From positions 1 through 39,048 of the forward strand of contig CAJXEN010000002.1 in NCBI GenBank assembly GCA_913052465.1: a stretch of DNA of 39,048 nucleotides, in the 5' to 3' direction. This document shows positions 25,653 through 39,048 of this stretch, piece by piece. A program made the translations under genes and the position numbers. The notes beneath the pieces are model-generated. The model was not told where the DNA came from. It saw only the letters and a list, made by a program, of their open reading frames with translations, and did no database searches. Source of the stretch: an uncultured Oceanospirillaceae bacterium (lineage in GTDB: Bacteria; Pseudomonadota; Gammaproteobacteria; Pseudomonadales; Balneatricaceae). Positions within the stretch are counted from its first letter, which is position 1. Each line of letters begins with the position of its first letter.

Positions 25653-26762
25653 GTGTTAGATTTTTTGTACGAGTACGGGTTATTTTTAGCTAAAGTGATT
25701 ACTTTTTGTGTTGCAGCTGTCGTGGTTATTGGCTTTTTAATAATGACAGGACAAAACCGCCGCCAACACAGTAAGGCTGGGCACATCGAGGTACGAAATC
25801 TTAATGAAGAATTTGAAGACATGACGGATACACTAGATCACGCCATGATGGACAAATACCAATTCAAGCAGTTACGTAAAAGCCAAGAGAAAGCTGACAA
25901 GCTCCAAACTAAACTAGATAAGGCTTATGCAAAAAAGCAGGCCAAGCAAACTAAGCTAAATGTCTCTGCAGAAACAAGCGAGGAAGAGGATGTTTCTACA
26001 GCCAAAAAACGTACCTTTGTATTGGATTTTGATGGCGACGTAAAAGCCAGCGCGTTAGAGTTTCTACGTCACGAGATTAGTGCCATTATATCTGTTGCTA
26101 AAGTGACTGATGAAATTATTATGCGCTTAGACTCAAGCGGTGGCATGGTGCACACCTATGGTTTGGCTGCATCGCAACTGGGACGCATTAACGCTGCCAA
26201 AATCCCACTCACTATTTGTGTTGACGAAATAGCGGCTAGTGGTGGCTACATGATGGCTTGTATGGCTAACCATATTATTGCCGCACCATTTGCCCTTGTC
26301 GGTTCTATTGGCGTAGTGGCAGAGGTACCTAACGTACACAGATTGTTAAAAAAGCACTCTATTGATGTTGAAGTGCTAACTGCAGGTGAACACAAGCGAA
26401 GCCTCACTATAATGGGTGAAAATACACGCAAGGGACGTGATAAGTTTGTAGACGACTTACAGCAAACTCACAGTTTATTTAAACATTGGGTAAAGCAACA
26501 ACGCCCACAACTTGATTTAGATAAAGTGGCTAATGGTGATGTATGGTATGGCCAACAAGCTATTGATATGGGCCTTGTAGACGCAGTGGGCACCTCAGAT
26601 GAAGTATTACTAGAGGCCATTAAAAAAAGTGATGTATTACTGATAGAGTACGTTGCTAAAAAGACCATTGGTGAAAAATTTGGCATTGCAGCCGCTACGA
26701 GTATAACGCTGTTCAGCAACCGCATATGGTCCAAAATACAACGTCAGTCTATTACCCACTAA
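25653..26762 (+). CDS. sohB: S49-family inner-membrane protease SohB
   Basis: N-terminal TM, LRLDSSGGMVHTYGLAASQL, DEIAASGGYMMACMANHIIAAPFALVGSIGV; GTG start. Confidence 0.94.
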   Translation: MLDFLYEYGLFLAKVITFCVAAVVVIGFLIMTGQNRRQHSKAGHIEVRNLNEEFEDMTDTLDHAMMDKYQFKQLRKSQEKADKLQTKLDKAYAKKQAKQTKLNVSAETSEEEDVSTAKKRTFVLDFDGDVKASALEFLRHEISAIISVAKVTDEIIMRLDSSGGMVHTYGLAASQLGRINAAKIPLTICVDEIAASGGYMMACMANHIIAAPFALVGSIGVVAEVPNVHRLLKKHSIDVEVLTAGEHKRSLTIMGENTRKGRDKFVDDLQQTHSLFKHWVKQQRPQLDLDKVANGDVWYGQQAIDMGLVDAVGTSDEVLLEAIKKSDVLLIEYVAKKTIGEKFGIAAATSITLFSNRIWSKIQRQSITH

Positions 26763-26782
26763 ATTGCTTAAGGAACTATTTA

Positions 26783-27565
26783 ATGCAGTCTTTTTCAAGC
26801 CTTTGTAAACCTTTGAAACCAAACTTTTTGGGGTTAAGCGATACACCAGTGCGTATTGGCTTAGTGGTATTGGCAACAGACATGGTGCTTGAAGCCGAAT
26901 GGCGCGAACTATTTACTGGCTTACCGATCGAGGTTTTGGTAGCTCGCATAGCCTGTGAAGCAGAAGTGACTCCTGAGGCGTTGTTAACCATGGCGCATCA
27001 GATAGGTCAGTGTGCTAGCTTAATATTGCCGGACGTAACGCTAGATGCGATCGCTTACGGATGCACGTCTGGCAGTTTAGTGATAGGTGAAGATAAGGTG
27101 CATCAATTGCTTCAACAGGGCAACGTACAACAAATTACTAGTAATCCATTTAGTGCAGCCAAAGCTGCATTAGCACACATTAAGGCGCAAAATGTGGTGG
27201 TGCTTTCTCCTTACTTAGCCTCTGTCAATAGACCCTTTTATAAGGCGCTAACTCACGCCAGTTTTAACATTACACGTTGGGGCAGCTTGGACCTAACACT
27301 AGATCGTGACATTGGCGCCATGAACCCAGATCATTTACCTATATTGATTGATCAGCTAATTGATGGTCTTGAAGTGTTGCCAGATGCAGTATTTATTTCT
27401 TGCACTAACTTTAAAGCAATAGCCAAGTTACATGAACTAGAGCAGCGTTATGGCTGTTACTTTATGTCTAGTAATCAAGTGATGGCCTGGCATGTTTTAC
27501 ACCAGCTTAATATTACACTACCTAAAGCCCAGGCTGGACGCTTGCTGAGTTCGGTATCCGTATAA
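26783..27565 (+). CDS. Maleate isomerase / Asp-Glu racemase superfamily protein
   Basis: RIGLVVLATDMVLEAEWRELF..., paired Cys motifs AYGCTSGSLVIG and FISCTNFKAI as in maleate cis-trans isomerases/arylmalonate decarboxylases; ATG at 26783. Confidence 0.78.
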   Translation: MQSFSSLCKPLKPNFLGLSDTPVRIGLVVLATDMVLEAEWRELFTGLPIEVLVARIACEAEVTPEALLTMAHQIGQCASLILPDVTLDAIAYGCTSGSLVIGEDKVHQLLQQGNVQQITSNPFSAAKAALAHIKAQNVVVLSPYLASVNRPFYKALTHASFNITRWGSLDLTLDRDIGAMNPDHLPILIDQLIDGLEVLPDAVFISCTNFKAIAKLHELEQRYGCYFMSSNQVMAWHVLHQLNITLPKAQAGRLLSSVSV

Positions 27566-29670: not shown

Positions 29671-31782
29671 ATGCCACTCATAGCCACCAAGGATTGGACT
29701 ACTTTGCACCCTATTCCACTATTAGCTGATTTTCGTGAACCGCTATTAATGGCACGATTAAACGGCCATCGTTTGATGTTAGTGGTGGCAATGTCACAAG
29801 AGCAAGGTATCGCTCAGGCGCAAGAACTGACTCGCGCTAGTTCCTCGTGCTTGTGGATAGATGTAATAAAAAATGACCAAATTTTGTATACAAACCACCA
29901 ATACATCAGCTCGGATCAAGCTAATCAGTTCTTAGGCACATGTAACCAATATGTGGTCTACAATGCACATAGTGGGTTTAATGCCAACGCTTTTTGTGGC
30001 TTTAGCGGAACGGTTTCTGCAGGGGGTGTATTAGTTTTACTTACACCAGACACGCATCAATGGCATAGTAATTTTGATACTCAACTAAAAAATTATGGCC
30101 AACTAGCCAGCAATGCTCATTCATATTTTATCCAATGGTGGCAACTGCAATGGCAAAGCCATGACGCAGTATACGTTTTGCAGTCGCAGGTATATGGCCA
30201 TAATGATCAACTAAAAAGCGATATTTGGCAGCCATTATCTGACCTCACACAAACCTCGATGAGGTTTGAGCCTACGGCCCAACAACAGGGCATTATTGAT
30301 CAACTTATTACTGTCTATGATAGACAAACGCCTATGGTTTTTACTATTGATGCTCATAGAGGTAGGGGCAAATCATCTTGCTTAGGGTGGCTAATTAAAG
30401 CCATTAGCAAAAATGCCAGACACGAGCAGATTCACAATAGCATTATAGTCACTGCGCCGAGCAAACGGGCCCTTGGCGCTATGATACATACTGCAGCGCC
30501 ACAAAAGATCAATTTTTATGCCTTAGACACCCTATTAAAGATGCGCCCAGAGGGAGGTATGCTAATCGTTGATGAAGCTGCATCTGTGCCTCTGTCGCAG
30601 CTGAAAAAGCTAATCGACTACTATGATTTAGTCGTTTTATCGTCCACGCAAGATGGCTATGAGGGCAGTGGTCAAGGTTATCGACTTAAGTTACCACATA
30701 TTATTAATGACCTTGGACGGGCCTGTAAGGTAATGAAATTAACCCAACCTATGCGCTGGCAGACCAATGACCCGTTAGAAGAGTTTATCCGAAGTAGTTT
30801 TTTATGTGATGTAAAGACGCCAAATGTTGGAAAAAAGTTACCCTATGACTCTAAACAATTACCCAATTACTGTCAGGTAACAGGCCAGCAATTGGCTTAT
30901 GATAATAACTTATTGAGGCAGGTTTACGCATTACTCATGTTGGCTCACTACCAAACCACCCCCCAAGACTTGCGGATATTGCTTGATCACCCTGAACATA
31001 AGATTCATCTGTGTTATGTCGGCAGTCAACTAGCTGGGTTAGCATGGGTGGCCTGTGAGGGTGGTTTAGACTCTGAATTAGCCCAGCAAATTACGCTAGG
31101 AACACGACGTATTCAAGGCCATCTTTTAGCGCAAATTTTAGCCCAGCAAGCTAGCTTTTCAAACGCTTGTCAAATGCACAGTTGGCGTATCCAACGCCTA
31201 GTAGTGTTGCCGTCGCTACAGGGAAAGGGACTAGGGTCGGCTTTACTGCAACAGATTTATAGTTTGGCAAAACAGTCTCACGTGGACTTTGTTGGTGCCA
31301 GTTTTTCTGCAAGCAACGATACCTTAAGGTTTTGGCGTACCAACAACTTTTTACCTGCATGGCTTGGAATACGAGCAGACGCGGCTACTGGGCTCAATAG
31401 TGTGCAGGTGATACGCCCCATAAGTGATGCGGCCACACAAATGACCAAAGACCTAAGCTATCACTTGCAAGGTTACTTAAATTTTGGCAAAGACATTTGG
31501 TTTGGCTCAGTAAATTCGCAAACTTGGCAAGACCTGCATTGGGCAGATCTTCCAACTGTAACTATAGATCACCAACGCCAGCAACAGCAGAAGCTGTTAA
31601 GGATACTGGCACAAGGGCTTGCAGGCTTTAGTGGACCGTTGTATTTATTGCACAGACAATTAGCGGATAAAAAACGCAAAAAAATAGTAATGAATGCAGC
31701 ACAAAACAACACTCATAAAGGCTTACAGCGTGAAGTGAGGCAACTAGCAGCACTAATACTAGAATCTTCTTCTGTTGAATAA
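29671..31782 (+). CDS. tmcA: tRNA(Met) cytidine acetyltransferase
   Basis: TIDAHRGRGKSSCLGWLIKA Walker A, LIVDEAASVPLSQL, GNAT region RLVVLPSLQGKGLGSALLQQI, VGASFSASNDTLRFWRTNNF. Confidence 0.94.
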   Translation: MPLIATKDWTTLHPIPLLADFREPLLMARLNGHRLMLVVAMSQEQGIAQAQELTRASSSCLWIDVIKNDQILYTNHQYISSDQANQFLGTCNQYVVYNAHSGFNANAFCGFSGTVSAGGVLVLLTPDTHQWHSNFDTQLKNYGQLASNAHSYFIQWWQLQWQSHDAVYVLQSQVYGHNDQLKSDIWQPLSDLTQTSMRFEPTAQQQGIIDQLITVYDRQTPMVFTIDAHRGRGKSSCLGWLIKAISKNARHEQIHNSIIVTAPSKRALGAMIHTAAPQKINFYALDTLLKMRPEGGMLIVDEAASVPLSQLKKLIDYYDLVVLSSTQDGYEGSGQGYRLKLPHIINDLGRACKVMKLTQPMRWQTNDPLEEFIRSSFLCDVKTPNVGKKLPYDSKQLPNYCQVTGQQLAYDNNLLRQVYALLMLAHYQTTPQDLRILLDHPEHKIHLCYVGSQLAGLAWVACEGGLDSELAQQITLGTRRIQGHLLAQILAQQASFSNACQMHSWRIQRLVVLPSLQGKGLGSALLQQIYSLAKQSHVDFVGASFSASNDTLRFWRTNNFLPAWLGIRADAATGLNSVQVIRPISDAATQMTKDLSYHLQGYLNFGKDIWFGSVNSQTWQDLHWADLPTVTIDHQRQQQQKLLRILAQGLAGFSGPLYLLHRQLADKKRKKIVMNAAQNNTHKGLQREVRQLAALILESSSVE

Positions 31783-31891
31783 CAATGATAATTGTTGATG
31801 GATGGATTGGTGATAGGTTTCGCAATTGAGGCGCAGCACAATAGGTATAAACTGGGTATACTGCTATCTTTGTTAATTTGTCTGATTAATC

Positions 31892-32932
31892 ATGAGCTCA
31901 GTTAAACTTACCCAATATAGCCACGGTGCTGGTTGTGGCTGTAAAATTTCGCCCCAAGTACTTGATGTGATGCTACAATCACAGCTACCCAAATTCTCTC
32001 ACCCTAATTTACTCGTGGGCAACGAAACCCGTGATGACGCCGCAGTGTTTGATTTGGGTGATGGTTCTGGCATTATCAGTACCACTGATTTTTTCATGCC
32101 TATCGTTGATGACCCCTTTGATTTTGGCCGCGTTGCAGCCACTAATGCGATTAGTGATGTTTATGCAATGGGTGGCCAGCCATTAATGGCCATTGCCATA
32201 TTAGGATGGCCTGTTGATAAATTGGACCCAGAAATTGCTGCCATGGTGATAGATGGCGCACGAGCGGTATGTGCACAGGCCAACATTTGCCTCGCAGGTG
32301 GTCACAGTATAGATGCATTAGAACCTATATTTGGGCTAGCCGTAACCGGCCGAGTGGAGTTAGAGCACCTTCAACGCAATGACCAAGCTCAAGCTGGTGA
32401 TCGATTAATGCTTACCAAACCCTTGGGTATAGGCATCTTAACTACAGCTGAAAAACGCGGCATACTCCGACCAGCAGATGTAAACTTGGCTCGTGACAGT
32501 ATGGTGAAGCTCAATGACTTAGGTGCAAAGTTGGCGCCTTTAACGGGCGTACATGCAATGACTGACGTTACTGGTTTCGGCTTAATGGGTCATTTAGTTG
32601 AGGTCTGTGAGGGAAGCCAGTTACAAGCCCTTATTGAGTTCGACAAAGTCCCCTTACTAACAGATCTACAACACTACCTTAACCAAGACTGCGTGCCAGG
32701 AGGCAGTGCTAGGAACTTTGCCAGCTATAGCCATAAGCTAGGAACTCTCACTGAGGAACAGTTGAACATCCTGTGTGACCCGCAAACAAGTGGTGGTTTA
32801 TTGGTGGCTGTGGCAGAGAGTCAAGTCGGCGCAGCAGAAGAAATTTGCCGTGCTCAAGCACATGAGTGTGTGTGGATTGGACGCTTATCTGCCCCAAAAG
32901 ATACGCAAAAACACTGGATCGAGGTAATTTAA
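31892..32932 (+). CDS. selD: Selenide, water dikinase (Cys form)
   Basis: [51 protein letters not shown]; active-site residue encoded as TGT (Cys). Confidence 0.97.
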
Positions 32933-32933
32933 A

Positions 32934-34082
32934 GTGGCTCCTCAAAGCAGACCAAAAAAAATGCCAAAGTCAATTAAGGCAGATGAATTTGACGATTTAC
33001 TATTACATCAACGTCCCATGTTTGATGTGCGAGCGCCTATAGAATTTGATAAGGGGGCGTTTCCCAACGTCGTTAACTTACCCCTAATGAACGATGATGA
33101 ACGCCAACAAATTGGTGTCTGTTATAAGCAACAAGGCCAAGAGGCTGCTATCGCTCTAGGCCATCAGTTAGTTAACGGCAACACTAAAGCGGAACGTGTT
33201 CAAAAATGGCATAACTTCGCTAGTGAACACCCAGAAGCTGTGCTCTATTGTTTTCGTGGAGGCCTTCGATCAAAAATTAGCCAGCAATGGCTGGCAGAGG
33301 CGGGCATTGTTATTCCTTTTGTTGAGGGTGGCTATAAAGCGCTGCGTTCTCATTTGCTTGAACGTTTAGACCACCTGATAGAAGAGGTACCTGCGTTTGT
33401 ACTCAGTGGCCGCACTGGCACTGGTAAGACCGAAATATTACCGCAGTTTGATCGCCCCATCGACTTAGAAGGTATTGCTAAACATCGCGGCTCTAGTTTT
33501 GGTAAATATATAGAAGAGCAACCCAGCCAAATTACCTTTGAAAACAATTTGGCTATCGCTTTAATGAAACTAAAACGAGCCGCTAATGCACCAGTAATCT
33601 ACGAAGACGAAAGTCGCTTGGTGGGCTGTCGCTTACTGCCTATAAGCCTTCAGGAAAAACTAAAATCTTCACCAATAATGGTATTAAGTGATGACTTTGA
33701 CCAGCGAGTAGAGCGTATTTTTGGTGAGTATGTAGTTAAGGCTGTCACAGCTTGGGAGCAAGAACTTATAGACCCCAATGAGGCTTTTTTAGCCTTTGGT
33801 GATAGTCTATTACAAAGCATTAATAGAATTCGTAAACGTTTAGGTAGTGAAGCCCATGCACATCTTGTTAAACTACTTGAAAAGGCCTTAAACCTGCAAT
33901 CTAAGCAACATAACCTTAGCAATCATAAAGATTGGATTTGCTACTTACTCATCCATTATTATGACCCCATGTATGACTACCAACTGTCCCTTAAACAGGA
34001 TCGTGTGGTTATGCGAGGCACCTCAAGTGAACTGGTCACTTGGTACAGAGCCAACATTACTAACAACACGCCACTTACTTAA
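32934..34082 (+). CDS. selU: tRNA 2-selenouridine synthase
   Basis: Rhodanese domain MFDVRAPIEFDKGAFPNVVNLPLM, YCFRGGLRSKISQQWL, P-loop SGRTGTGKTEIL; 1 nt after selD. GTG at 32934, or ATG at 32961. Confidence 0.96.
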   Translation: MAPQSRPKKMPKSIKADEFDDLLLHQRPMFDVRAPIEFDKGAFPNVVNLPLMNDDERQQIGVCYKQQGQEAAIALGHQLVNGNTKAERVQKWHNFASEHPEAVLYCFRGGLRSKISQQWLAEAGIVIPFVEGGYKALRSHLLERLDHLIEEVPAFVLSGRTGTGKTEILPQFDRPIDLEGIAKHRGSSFGKYIEEQPSQITFENNLAIALMKLKRAANAPVIYEDESRLVGCRLLPISLQEKLKSSPIMVLSDDFDQRVERIFGEYVVKAVTAWEQELIDPNEAFLAFGDSLLQSINRIRKRLGSEAHAHLVKLLEKALNLQSKQHNLSNHKDWICYLLIHYYDPMYDYQLSLKQDRVVMRGTSSELVTWYRANITNNTPLT

Positions 34083-36108: not shown

Positions 36109-36492
36109 ATGATAAAAAAACAGCATCCACCTGTCATCAACAATGCTGGTGATACCCCTCGCCAAACAAGGCAGGGGCACATGGCACGAGTCTCCAAGCT
36201 AGCTTTGGGGGACAATGCCTTGCCCGTCCGTTTTATGTACAAAACCATACCAGAGCATGGTAATGACACAGGTTGGCGCTTGTTCACTGGTTATGAAACG
36301 CCTGAATTCCTAGAACAGTTCTCCAACCTAGAACCTTTCCCATTGGAGCCTATGTGTGAAGCGGACTCAAGCCTAAACGCTTTGTTAGACCAAAACGCAG
36401 GTACTGCGTGGGAGAGACCCCCACAACAACCATGGCAACAAGTGTATGACTTCGAAATCCCTGTGGAAGAAGTCGCTGTTGATGTAAGCTAA
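36109..36492 (+). CDS. DUF2185 / Imm33-like small protein
   Basis: MYKTIPEHGNDTGWRLFTGYETPEFLEQFSNLEPFPLEPMCEADSSLNALLDQNAGTAWERP resembles DUF2185 (GW-F-G-E, late AFER-like motif). Confidence 0.65.
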   Translation: MIKKQHPPVINNAGDTPRQTRQGHMARVSKLALGDNALPVRFMYKTIPEHGNDTGWRLFTGYETPEFLEQFSNLEPFPLEPMCEADSSLNALLDQNAGTAWERPPQQPWQQVYDFEIPVEEVAVDVS

Positions 36493-37283
36493 TGCTACTC
36501 AATACCCTTCAATTTAACACTCATGGTAAATACCCTCTAGTGGTTTTACATGGCCTTTTTGGTGCCCAAGATAATTGGCGTAGCCAAGCCTTAGTTTGGG
36601 CGCAAGATCGTCGTGTGATTATTATGGACCTGCGTAACCATGGTATGTCGCCTCACGATCCGTTGATAAACTATGTCTCTATGTCTGAGGATGTGATAGA
36701 AAGTTTAAACTGGCTGGGGTTACAACAGGTTGACCTTTTAGGTCATTCCATGGGAGGCAAGGTGGCTATGCAACTGGCCTTTAATCACCCACAACGTATA
36801 ACAAGCCTGCTAGTAGCAGATATAGCGCCAGTATCTTATCAACCCCATCACCAGAAAATATTAGCAGGCCTCAATAGTATTAATCTTGACACGTTAAAGT
36901 CACGTAAAGAGGCTTTAGATATACTTATGGCCTACCAACCAGATGCTAGTGTGTGTCAGTTTTTACTTAAAAGCCTTTATAAAAATGAAAGTGGCATGTT
37001 TGCTTTTCGCTACAACCTCAAAGCCATCAACGAGAACTATCAAGCGATCAATGCAGCTCCTGAGCCTGACATACTCTCTGCTAAACAAGCCTACTCTGGC
37101 CCAACTATGGTACTTAAGGGTGCTAACTCTGCTTACATATTACCTCAACATAAGCCTGCTTTTGATGCTTTGTTGCCCAGCGCACAGCTTAAAATCATGG
37201 CCGATTGTGGGCATTGGTTACATGCCGAAAAACCAGAGCTTTTTTGTCGTTTGGTGACCCGTTTTTTAGACCGTGTTGTTTAA
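36492..37283 (+). CDS. Alpha/beta-hydrolase (YbfF-like esterase)
   Basis: LVVLHGLFGAQDNWRSQA, DLRNHGMSPHD, LLGHSMGGKVAMQLA, CGHWLHAEKPELF. Confidence 0.9.
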   Translation: MLLNTLQFNTHGKYPLVVLHGLFGAQDNWRSQALVWAQDRRVIIMDLRNHGMSPHDPLINYVSMSEDVIESLNWLGLQQVDLLGHSMGGKVAMQLAFNHPQRITSLLVADIAPVSYQPHHQKILAGLNSINLDTLKSRKEALDILMAYQPDASVCQFLLKSLYKNESGMFAFRYNLKAINENYQAINAAPEPDILSAKQAYSGPTMVLKGANSAYILPQHKPAFDALLPSAQLKIMADCGHWLHAEKPELFCRLVTRFLDRVV

Positions 37284-37286
37284 TTA

Positions 37287-38417
37287 ATGCGTATTTTATT
37301 ACTTTCAGCTTACGATGCTCAAAGTCATCAATATTGGCGTGAGGGGCTAGTAGCTCAGTTCCCAAGCTCTGATTGGACCCAGTTAGTATTGCCAGGGAGA
37401 TATTTTAGTTGGCGTATTCGGGGCAATAGTATGCAATGGGCTTTGGGAGAAAGAGCCACTTTAGACCAGCCCTATGATTTAGTTATTGCTACCTCCATGG
37501 TTGATTTAGCCTCCCTCAAAGGGTTTGTGCCTAACTTGGCACATGTACCGTCAATTCTATATTTCCATGAAAATCAGTTTATTTATCCCCTTAGTCATTC
37601 CAACAAAAAACACCATTTAGACCCTAAAATAGTGACTTTATACGGTGCTTTAGCTGCTGATAAGTTGTTATTTAATAGTCGATACAACCAACAAAGTTTT
37701 ATGTCAGGGATCAAAGAGTTACTCAACCAATTACCAGAAAAGATGCCTGTAGATGTGGCTCAACTATTAGACGAAAAAAGCTCTGTGTTGCCAGTACCCT
37801 TAAGGTCTCTCACAGACAATAGCCACCAAGACTATCAAAATTTGTGGCCTAAACGAAAGGGCGTATCACCTTTACGGTTAGTTTGGGCTGCGCGATGGGA
37901 ATACGACAAGGGTCCACAACTTCTGCAAGCCATATTACGAGAACTAGGTAAAAGAAATATAGACTTCCAGATTTGTGTTCTAGGGCAGAAGTTTCGTAAA
38001 CAACCCATCGAATTTGAACAAATAAAAGATGAATTCAGTACTCAAATTATTCAATTTGGGTATGCTGAATCCCGTCATCACTACCTTAGTTGGCTGGCGG
38101 CAGCCGATATAGTACTGTCTACGGCGCTGCATGAGTTTCAAGGGCTAGCTGTGCTAGAAGCAGTGCAGTTAGGGTGTATTCCCGTATTGCCAAATCACCT
38201 AGTTTATCCAGAACTATTTGCTCCCATATACCTGTACACATCTGCCTTTAATAACCTACCACAAGAAGCCAGTTCGGCTGTGTCTGTGATTCAGTATCAA
38301 ATGGGGCTAATGGTTAAAGGCATAGCCGTAGCACCGATAATAAAAAACCTAGAATGGCCCGCTATGACGATTGCTTATGACGAAATTTTGCGTTGCGTTC
38401 GTTATAGTCGAAGTTAG
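37287..38417 (+). CDS. DUF3524 glycosyltransferase, predicted tRNA-queuosine mannosyltransferase-like (QTMAN/GTDC1 family)
   Basis: N-terminal SAYDAQSHQYWREGLVAQFP...LVLPGRYFSWRIRGNSMQWA, SILYFHENQFIYP, and GT-B E-x7-E motif HEFQGLAVLEAVQLGCIPVLPNHLVYPELF resemble the GTDC1/QTMAN family as I remember it. Confidence 0.82.
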   Translation: MRILLLSAYDAQSHQYWREGLVAQFPSSDWTQLVLPGRYFSWRIRGNSMQWALGERATLDQPYDLVIATSMVDLASLKGFVPNLAHVPSILYFHENQFIYPLSHSNKKHHLDPKIVTLYGALAADKLLFNSRYNQQSFMSGIKELLNQLPEKMPVDVAQLLDEKSSVLPVPLRSLTDNSHQDYQNLWPKRKGVSPLRLVWAARWEYDKGPQLLQAILRELGKRNIDFQICVLGQKFRKQPIEFEQIKDEFSTQIIQFGYAESRHHYLSWLAAADIVLSTALHEFQGLAVLEAVQLGCIPVLPNHLVYPELFAPIYLYTSAFNNLPQEASSAVSVIQYQMGLMVKGIAVAPIIKNLEWPAMTIAYDEILRCVRYSRS

Positions 38418-39048
38418 GGCACTGGCAAAGTGACTGTTGTAGCTTGCCTAGGACAATGCCATGGGTTTACGTACCGATAACGATTATTGGACCAAGCAAC
38501 ATGTGAACCAAAAACTGTAGACTTTTTAAATTTAAAAAAATGCGCAAATATTACGCCCTAAATGACCAGAGTAATAATTACAGACTATTGTGCCGGCAAT
38601 TTATTTAACGTCAAAGTAGCATACAGAGCTGCCCCACAGCTAGGACAACCCAATGATCTATTTGGATCAGTCCCTTGATTACGAAAACAGTATAGCAACA
38701 TATTCTGGTATTACTTTGTCACCATATAGTCATTATTTAACAGCTGTATTGGATTCTGTGTTGTTACCGTAATTTTACAGCAGAGCTGTAAAAAAAATAA
38801 GCATATGGCGCCCAAACTAATACTGAAGCATGGTAAAATTACTATATATTATTACTAATGCCATTGAGCTGAACCCACATGACTCGTGTCAAAAAGAAAA
38901 TGCCTGCCGTAGCTGGTGTGACTTTTAAGTAAGCCCCATAAAAAAAATCCATCGTTGCTAAGAATTTGTCGCCTTCCAGTTATCAAGTGCGTAAACAAAA
39001 AGGCTTAGCCACTAAAAAGAAACAAAAGTCTGTATTCCAGCAGCACGA

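Follow-up and report, generated by a model that had tools for sequence, protein, structure and literature searches.

A QTMAN homologue as a probable queuosine-34 glycosyltransferase in marine Gammaproteobacteria, with a sugar that may differ from mannose

The product of the gene at 37287..38417 of the window (the whole stretch of 39,048 nucleotides analysed here) is most likely a bacterial glycosyltransferase of the QTMAN family that acts on queuosine at tRNA position 34 (Q34), a reading to which we give a probability of roughly 0.65. The protein would be a cytosolic, retaining GT-B enzyme that uses a nucleotide-sugar as donor to glycosylate a hydroxyl of the queuosine cyclopentenediol at the wobble position of one or more GUN tRNAs. 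Family membership, conserved donor-side residues, a queuosine-making host and a predicted fold support a QTMAN homologue; we infer Q in tRNA as the acceptor, as well as the tRNA and the hydroxyl concerned. The features concerned are collected in Table 1.

Table 1. Coordinates in the window of the QTMAN-homologue gene, its domain and motifs, and conserved neighbours
Feature	Position	Strand	Basis or remark
QTMAN-family glycosyltransferase gene, 376 aa	37287..38417	+	ORF list, Pfam, AlphaFold2 model
QTMAN_N domain (PF12038)	37290..37802	+	Pfam profile match
PGRYFSWRIRGN, residues 36-47	37392..37427	+	R43 is the same in all 58 homologues; proposed to lie on the acceptor (tRNA) side
HENQxxxP, residues 94-101	37566..37589	+	H94, E95, N96, P101 invariant; active-site loop of the N-domain (proposed)
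WxxRWEYDK, residues 200-208	37884..37910	+	W200, R203, D207, K208 invariant (58 homologues)
HEFQGLAVLE, residues 282-291, E-x7-E donor motif	38130..38159	+	G286, E291 invariant
YbfF-like alpha/beta hydrolase	36492..37283	+	Ends 3 nt upstream of the QTMAN homologue, same orientation
MnmH, tRNA 2-selenouridine(34) synthase, wobble-base enzyme	32934..34082	+	Same conserved gene run
SelD, selenide water dikinase	31892..32932	+	
TmcA, tRNA(Met) cytidine acetyltransferase (ac4C34), wobble-base enzyme	29671..31782	+	

The open reading frame is intact, with an ATG start and zero internal stops. Its translation matches the Pfam domain QTMAN_N (formerly DUF3524), with residues 2-172 covering profile positions 1-168 of 168 (E = 3e-54; 183.8 bits at a curated cut-off of 25 bits), and this match is far beyond chance. 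The domain is followed by the GT1/GT4 domains PF00534 and PF13692 (residues ~197-312). The DUF3524-like N-terminus and GT-B-type C-terminus read by eye in the earlier note were therefore recovered by profile search, and the protein fell to the DUF3524/QTMAN model over its full length rather than to a generic GT4 clade lacking that domain. NCBIfam holds no equivalog covering the protein. A profile search of its own genome found this QTMAN_N copy only, and comparison with the closest relative (L007) indicated purifying selection (dN 0.22, dS 1.25). Judged by its profile matches, the gene genuinely belongs to the QTMAN sequence family, as a bacterial representative.

Four motifs stand out in the protein, namely PGRYFSWRIRGN (residues 36-47), YFHENQFIYP (92-101), HEFQGLAVLEAV (282-293) and LVYPELF (305-311). 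Invariant positions are few in an alignment of 58 bacterial QTMAN homologues (S13, H14, R43, H94, E95, N96, P101, W200, R203, D207, K208, G233, G286 and E291), and residue 283 is either E or D. The PF00534 region has both the R/K pair and the E-x7-E of a GT4 C-terminal domain, with R203, K208 and E291 invariant. R203/K208 together with E283-x7-E291 make up the signature that retaining GT4 enzymes show on the donor side, in which the R/K pair would hold the donor diphosphate. In the N-terminal domain, we infer that HENQ occupies the place where retaining GT4 enzymes have their active-site histidine. The structure prediction that the earlier note had proposed yielded a confident AlphaFold2 model with a GT-B fold (mean pLDDT 94, pTM 0.92). 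Foldseek aligned this model with the GT4 enzymes GlgM, MshA, PglA, BshA and PimA (E down to 6e-13). A choice of donor by fold comparison was rejected, since enzymes using ADP-, UDP- and GDP-sugars match alike. No solved QTMAN structure was found by profile search, which returned distant GT4 enzymes only.

The QTMAN family is not rare in bacteria. QTMAN_N is encoded in 98 of the 196 genomes sampled from the host's order, in 10 of 184 class-wide genomes and in 14 of 297 Actinomycetota genomes, and Bdellovibrionota and Planctomycetota contribute single loci. The 14 well-known control genomes, among them E. coli, all lack it. Horizontal mobility was considered and rejected, as no relative was detected on plasmids or viral contigs, where a few phages match the generic GT domain only. 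A phylogenetic tree placed 46 gammaproteobacterial proteins in a separate clade (support 100/100, stem of 1.29 changes per column), apart from the actinobacterial type. Residue 285 in the donor loop is Q in 45 alignment rows, all from this clade, and F, Y or L in the others. Human QTMAN reads HEFFG at this loop, like the actinobacterial type, which we treat as a lead only.

The animal enzyme QTMAN is GTDC1, whose identification as the tRNA-queuosine alpha-mannosyltransferase is cited in two reports (PMC11705514, PMC12518689). In its product, manQ, alpha-mannose is attached to the allylic hydroxyl of Q (PMC8654956; PMC12518689). For bacterial tRNA, a 2025 review gives Q34 and GluQ34 only (PMC12548931). 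We found no experimental report on the function of a bacterial QTMAN in the literature searched, which was mostly open-access. That bacteria possess the family is no novelty, because bacterial members are common and the Pfam domain already bears the name QTMAN. Glycosylated queuosine has been described from animals. With a close family member in about half of the genomes sampled from a large marine order, part of which can be cultured, glycosyl-Q could be widespread in bacteria and have escaped notice. At the family level, the protein shares with animal QTMAN the QTMAN_N domain, the GT4 C-terminal domain, the GT-B architecture and a host with Q in its tRNA. Unlike the animal enzyme, it belongs to a host that makes its own Q and to a gamma-specific clade marked by Q285 in its donor loop.

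The queuosine genes that the earlier note had wished to see in the rest of the genome are all there. The home genome encodes queA and tgt in one operon beside yajC/secD-type genes (L076) and queG elsewhere (C47:8892-9899), all above curated cut-offs, and also gluQRS (C150:2020-2811). Beyond this genome, bacterial tgt was present in all 18 QTMAN_N genomes examined from four phyla. The same holds for each of the 98 carriers in the order sample (one with a fragment only), a co-occurrence without statistical power because tgt is near universal in the host's order. Power lies only in the Actinomycetota comparison, where tgt exceeded the cut-off in 183 of 297 genomes (62%) and in 14 of 14 QTMAN_N carriers (Fisher p = 0.0012, uncorrected for kinship; near duplicates account for two or three of the 14, and the carriers occupy two or more distinct regions of the tree). 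The distribution of QTMAN_N depends on tgt. In most genomes the two genes are not adjacent. Both lie within 20 kb of each other in 9 genomes, but we treat this linkage as weak because the 9 genomes represent just two families, which differ in the intervening genes. Taken together, queuosine is the likely acceptor of the bacterial QTMAN homologue.

The sugar is a separate matter, and here mannose, which the earlier note names for the vertebrate enzyme, was not supported. A mannosyl enzyme requires GDP-mannose. G298, a 100% complete genome of the same genus, has the QTMAN_N gene and no GMP_PMI match, so that GDP-mannose synthesis of any recognisable kind is absent, another difference from animal QTMAN. 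Its sole PF00483 NTP_transferase protein is GlmU, which makes UDP-GlcNAc. GlmU is also alone among PF00483 proteins in G389, G390 and G393 (a completeness figure applies only to G298), whose QTMAN proteins are 65-69% identical to the 376-aa protein; in none of the four genomes did we find GalU, RmlA or ManC among PF00483 proteins. To have GlmU as the only nucleotidyltransferase of this family is unusual for Gram-negative bacteria. Because PF00483 also covers GalU, RmlA and GlgC, UDP-GlcNAc is the only product of that family in G298; ADP-heptose and CMP-Kdo come from other families. Since these close relatives are without the usual mannose donor, the sugar may differ from mannose. For the gammaproteobacterial clade GDP-mannose is an improbable donor, and the foremost candidate is UDP-GlcNAc. 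Tentatively, and at rather less than even odds, we suggest that this clade makes an undescribed non-mannose glycosyl-Q34 in bacterial tRNAs, most simply GlcNAc-Q from UDP-GlcNAc, or else heptosyl-Q from ADP-heptose.

The nearest alternative is a plain bacterial QTMAN that transfers mannose from GDP-mannose to Q34 of tRNA-Asp and makes manQ as in animals. It draws on the shared Pfam family and on GMP_PMI (manC), which exceeds the cut-off in 57 of 73 QTMAN_N carriers, most of the larger-genome ones included, so that GDP-mannose is still a possible donor there. We nevertheless regard it as unlikely, given the four genomes with GlmU alone, the separate, long-stemmed gammaproteobacterial clade and the state of manC in the home genome (L137, G000 C89:5991-7373). 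This manC is spread across three reading frames and belongs to an accessory sugar locus, where an intact GDP-fucose synthase gene adjoins it; in a MAG that is 84% complete, the split could reflect a pseudogene or an assembly error. With no recognisable source of GDP-mannose in the complete genome of the same genus, we refrain from calling the gene a manQ synthase. Should the sugar of the Q34 glycosyltransferase differ from mannose, the automatic database name would be wrong for the whole clade and a new wobble-base nucleoside would await discovery; cultured strains of the order include Amphritea and Teredinibacter. A further enzyme that places a sugar on Q34 of tRNA, the galactosyl-queuosine transferase QTGAL (B3GNTL1), is a GT-A protein. 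It is separate from QTMAN and differs in forming beta-galactosyl-Q on tRNA-Tyr, at another hydroxyl (PMC12518689).

The protein could instead be a GT4 enzyme that helps to make surface polysaccharides, lipids or thiols and resembles QTMAN in appearance only. Among the solved structures nearest in fold are MshA, BshA, PglA and glycogen synthases, whose substrates are small molecules, lipids or glycans, and the predicted model has the GT-B fold and retaining GT4 donor site of MshA, BshA, PglA, PimA and SenB. But these five enzymes are only 12-16% identical to the protein, have other acceptors and no reported QTMAN_N domain; QTMAN_N stands as a separate domain, and the profile search matched no generic GT4 N-terminal domain. 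In addition, no other GT4 gene was detected in the flanks of 66 QTMAN_N loci, where the neighbours are housekeeping genes, which argues against a polysaccharide locus. With the co-occurrence with tgt, and with the gene retained in streamlined genomes that lost GalU and ManC, a generic GT4 function appears quite improbable, and we keep to a glycosyltransferase acting on Q34.

GluQRS (YadB), the glutamyl-Q tRNA(Asp) synthetase, is the bacterial enzyme known to attach a further group to Q34 and is encoded in the same genome; it differs from the QTMAN homologue in adding an amino acid and in being a tRNA-synthetase paralogue, not a glycosyltransferase. Mutual exclusion of the two, expected if both modified Q34 of tRNA-Asp, was rejected, since GluQRS exceeded the cut-off in 98 of 98 QTMAN_N carriers of the order sample versus 84 of 98 non-carriers (Fisher p = 7e-5, an association confounded by kinship and reduced genomes). 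Because both coexist, they are not alternatives; they may use different hydroxyls or different tRNAs, or both may simply track Q. An acceptor related to Q but distinct from plain tRNA-bound Q (glutamyl-Q, preQ1 or epoxyQ tRNA, free queuine) would fit this association and the four Actinomycetota carriers in which a profile search gave no QueG match, yet with the association confounded and the QueG gaps possibly filled by QueH, we rate it as very improbable.

In the home clade, the QTMAN homologue belongs to a conserved gene run in the order tmcA, selD, mnmH, alcohol dehydrogenase, S-formylglutathione hydrolase (these two named by eye from sequence), an Imm33-domain ORF, ybfF and QTMAN, with ybfF directly upstream in 7 of 7 syntenic loci. 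TmcA and MnmH act at wobble position 34 (ac4C34 and 2-selenouridine34). The QTMAN homologue thus travels with two other wobble-base enzymes. The genes tmcA, selD and mnmH lie side by side (29671-34082), and with the QTMAN homologue three wobble-34 genes fall within 9 kb. The Imm33 (immunity protein) ORF (127 aa, 36109-36492, E = 1.4e-16) stands within this housekeeping run and is kept in the 7 syntenic loci. Elsewhere in the host's order, the gene most often found next downstream is trpS (15 of 66 loci). Downstream of the gene, 38420-39048 contains no long ORF, and five relatives have a conserved gene for a 254-aa membrane protein there. The last 170 bases of the window resemble a short basic protein interrupted by stops, in a frame read by eye. 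At 26726-27565, a domain of the arylmalonate decarboxylase (Amdase) family was detected (E = 5e-11).
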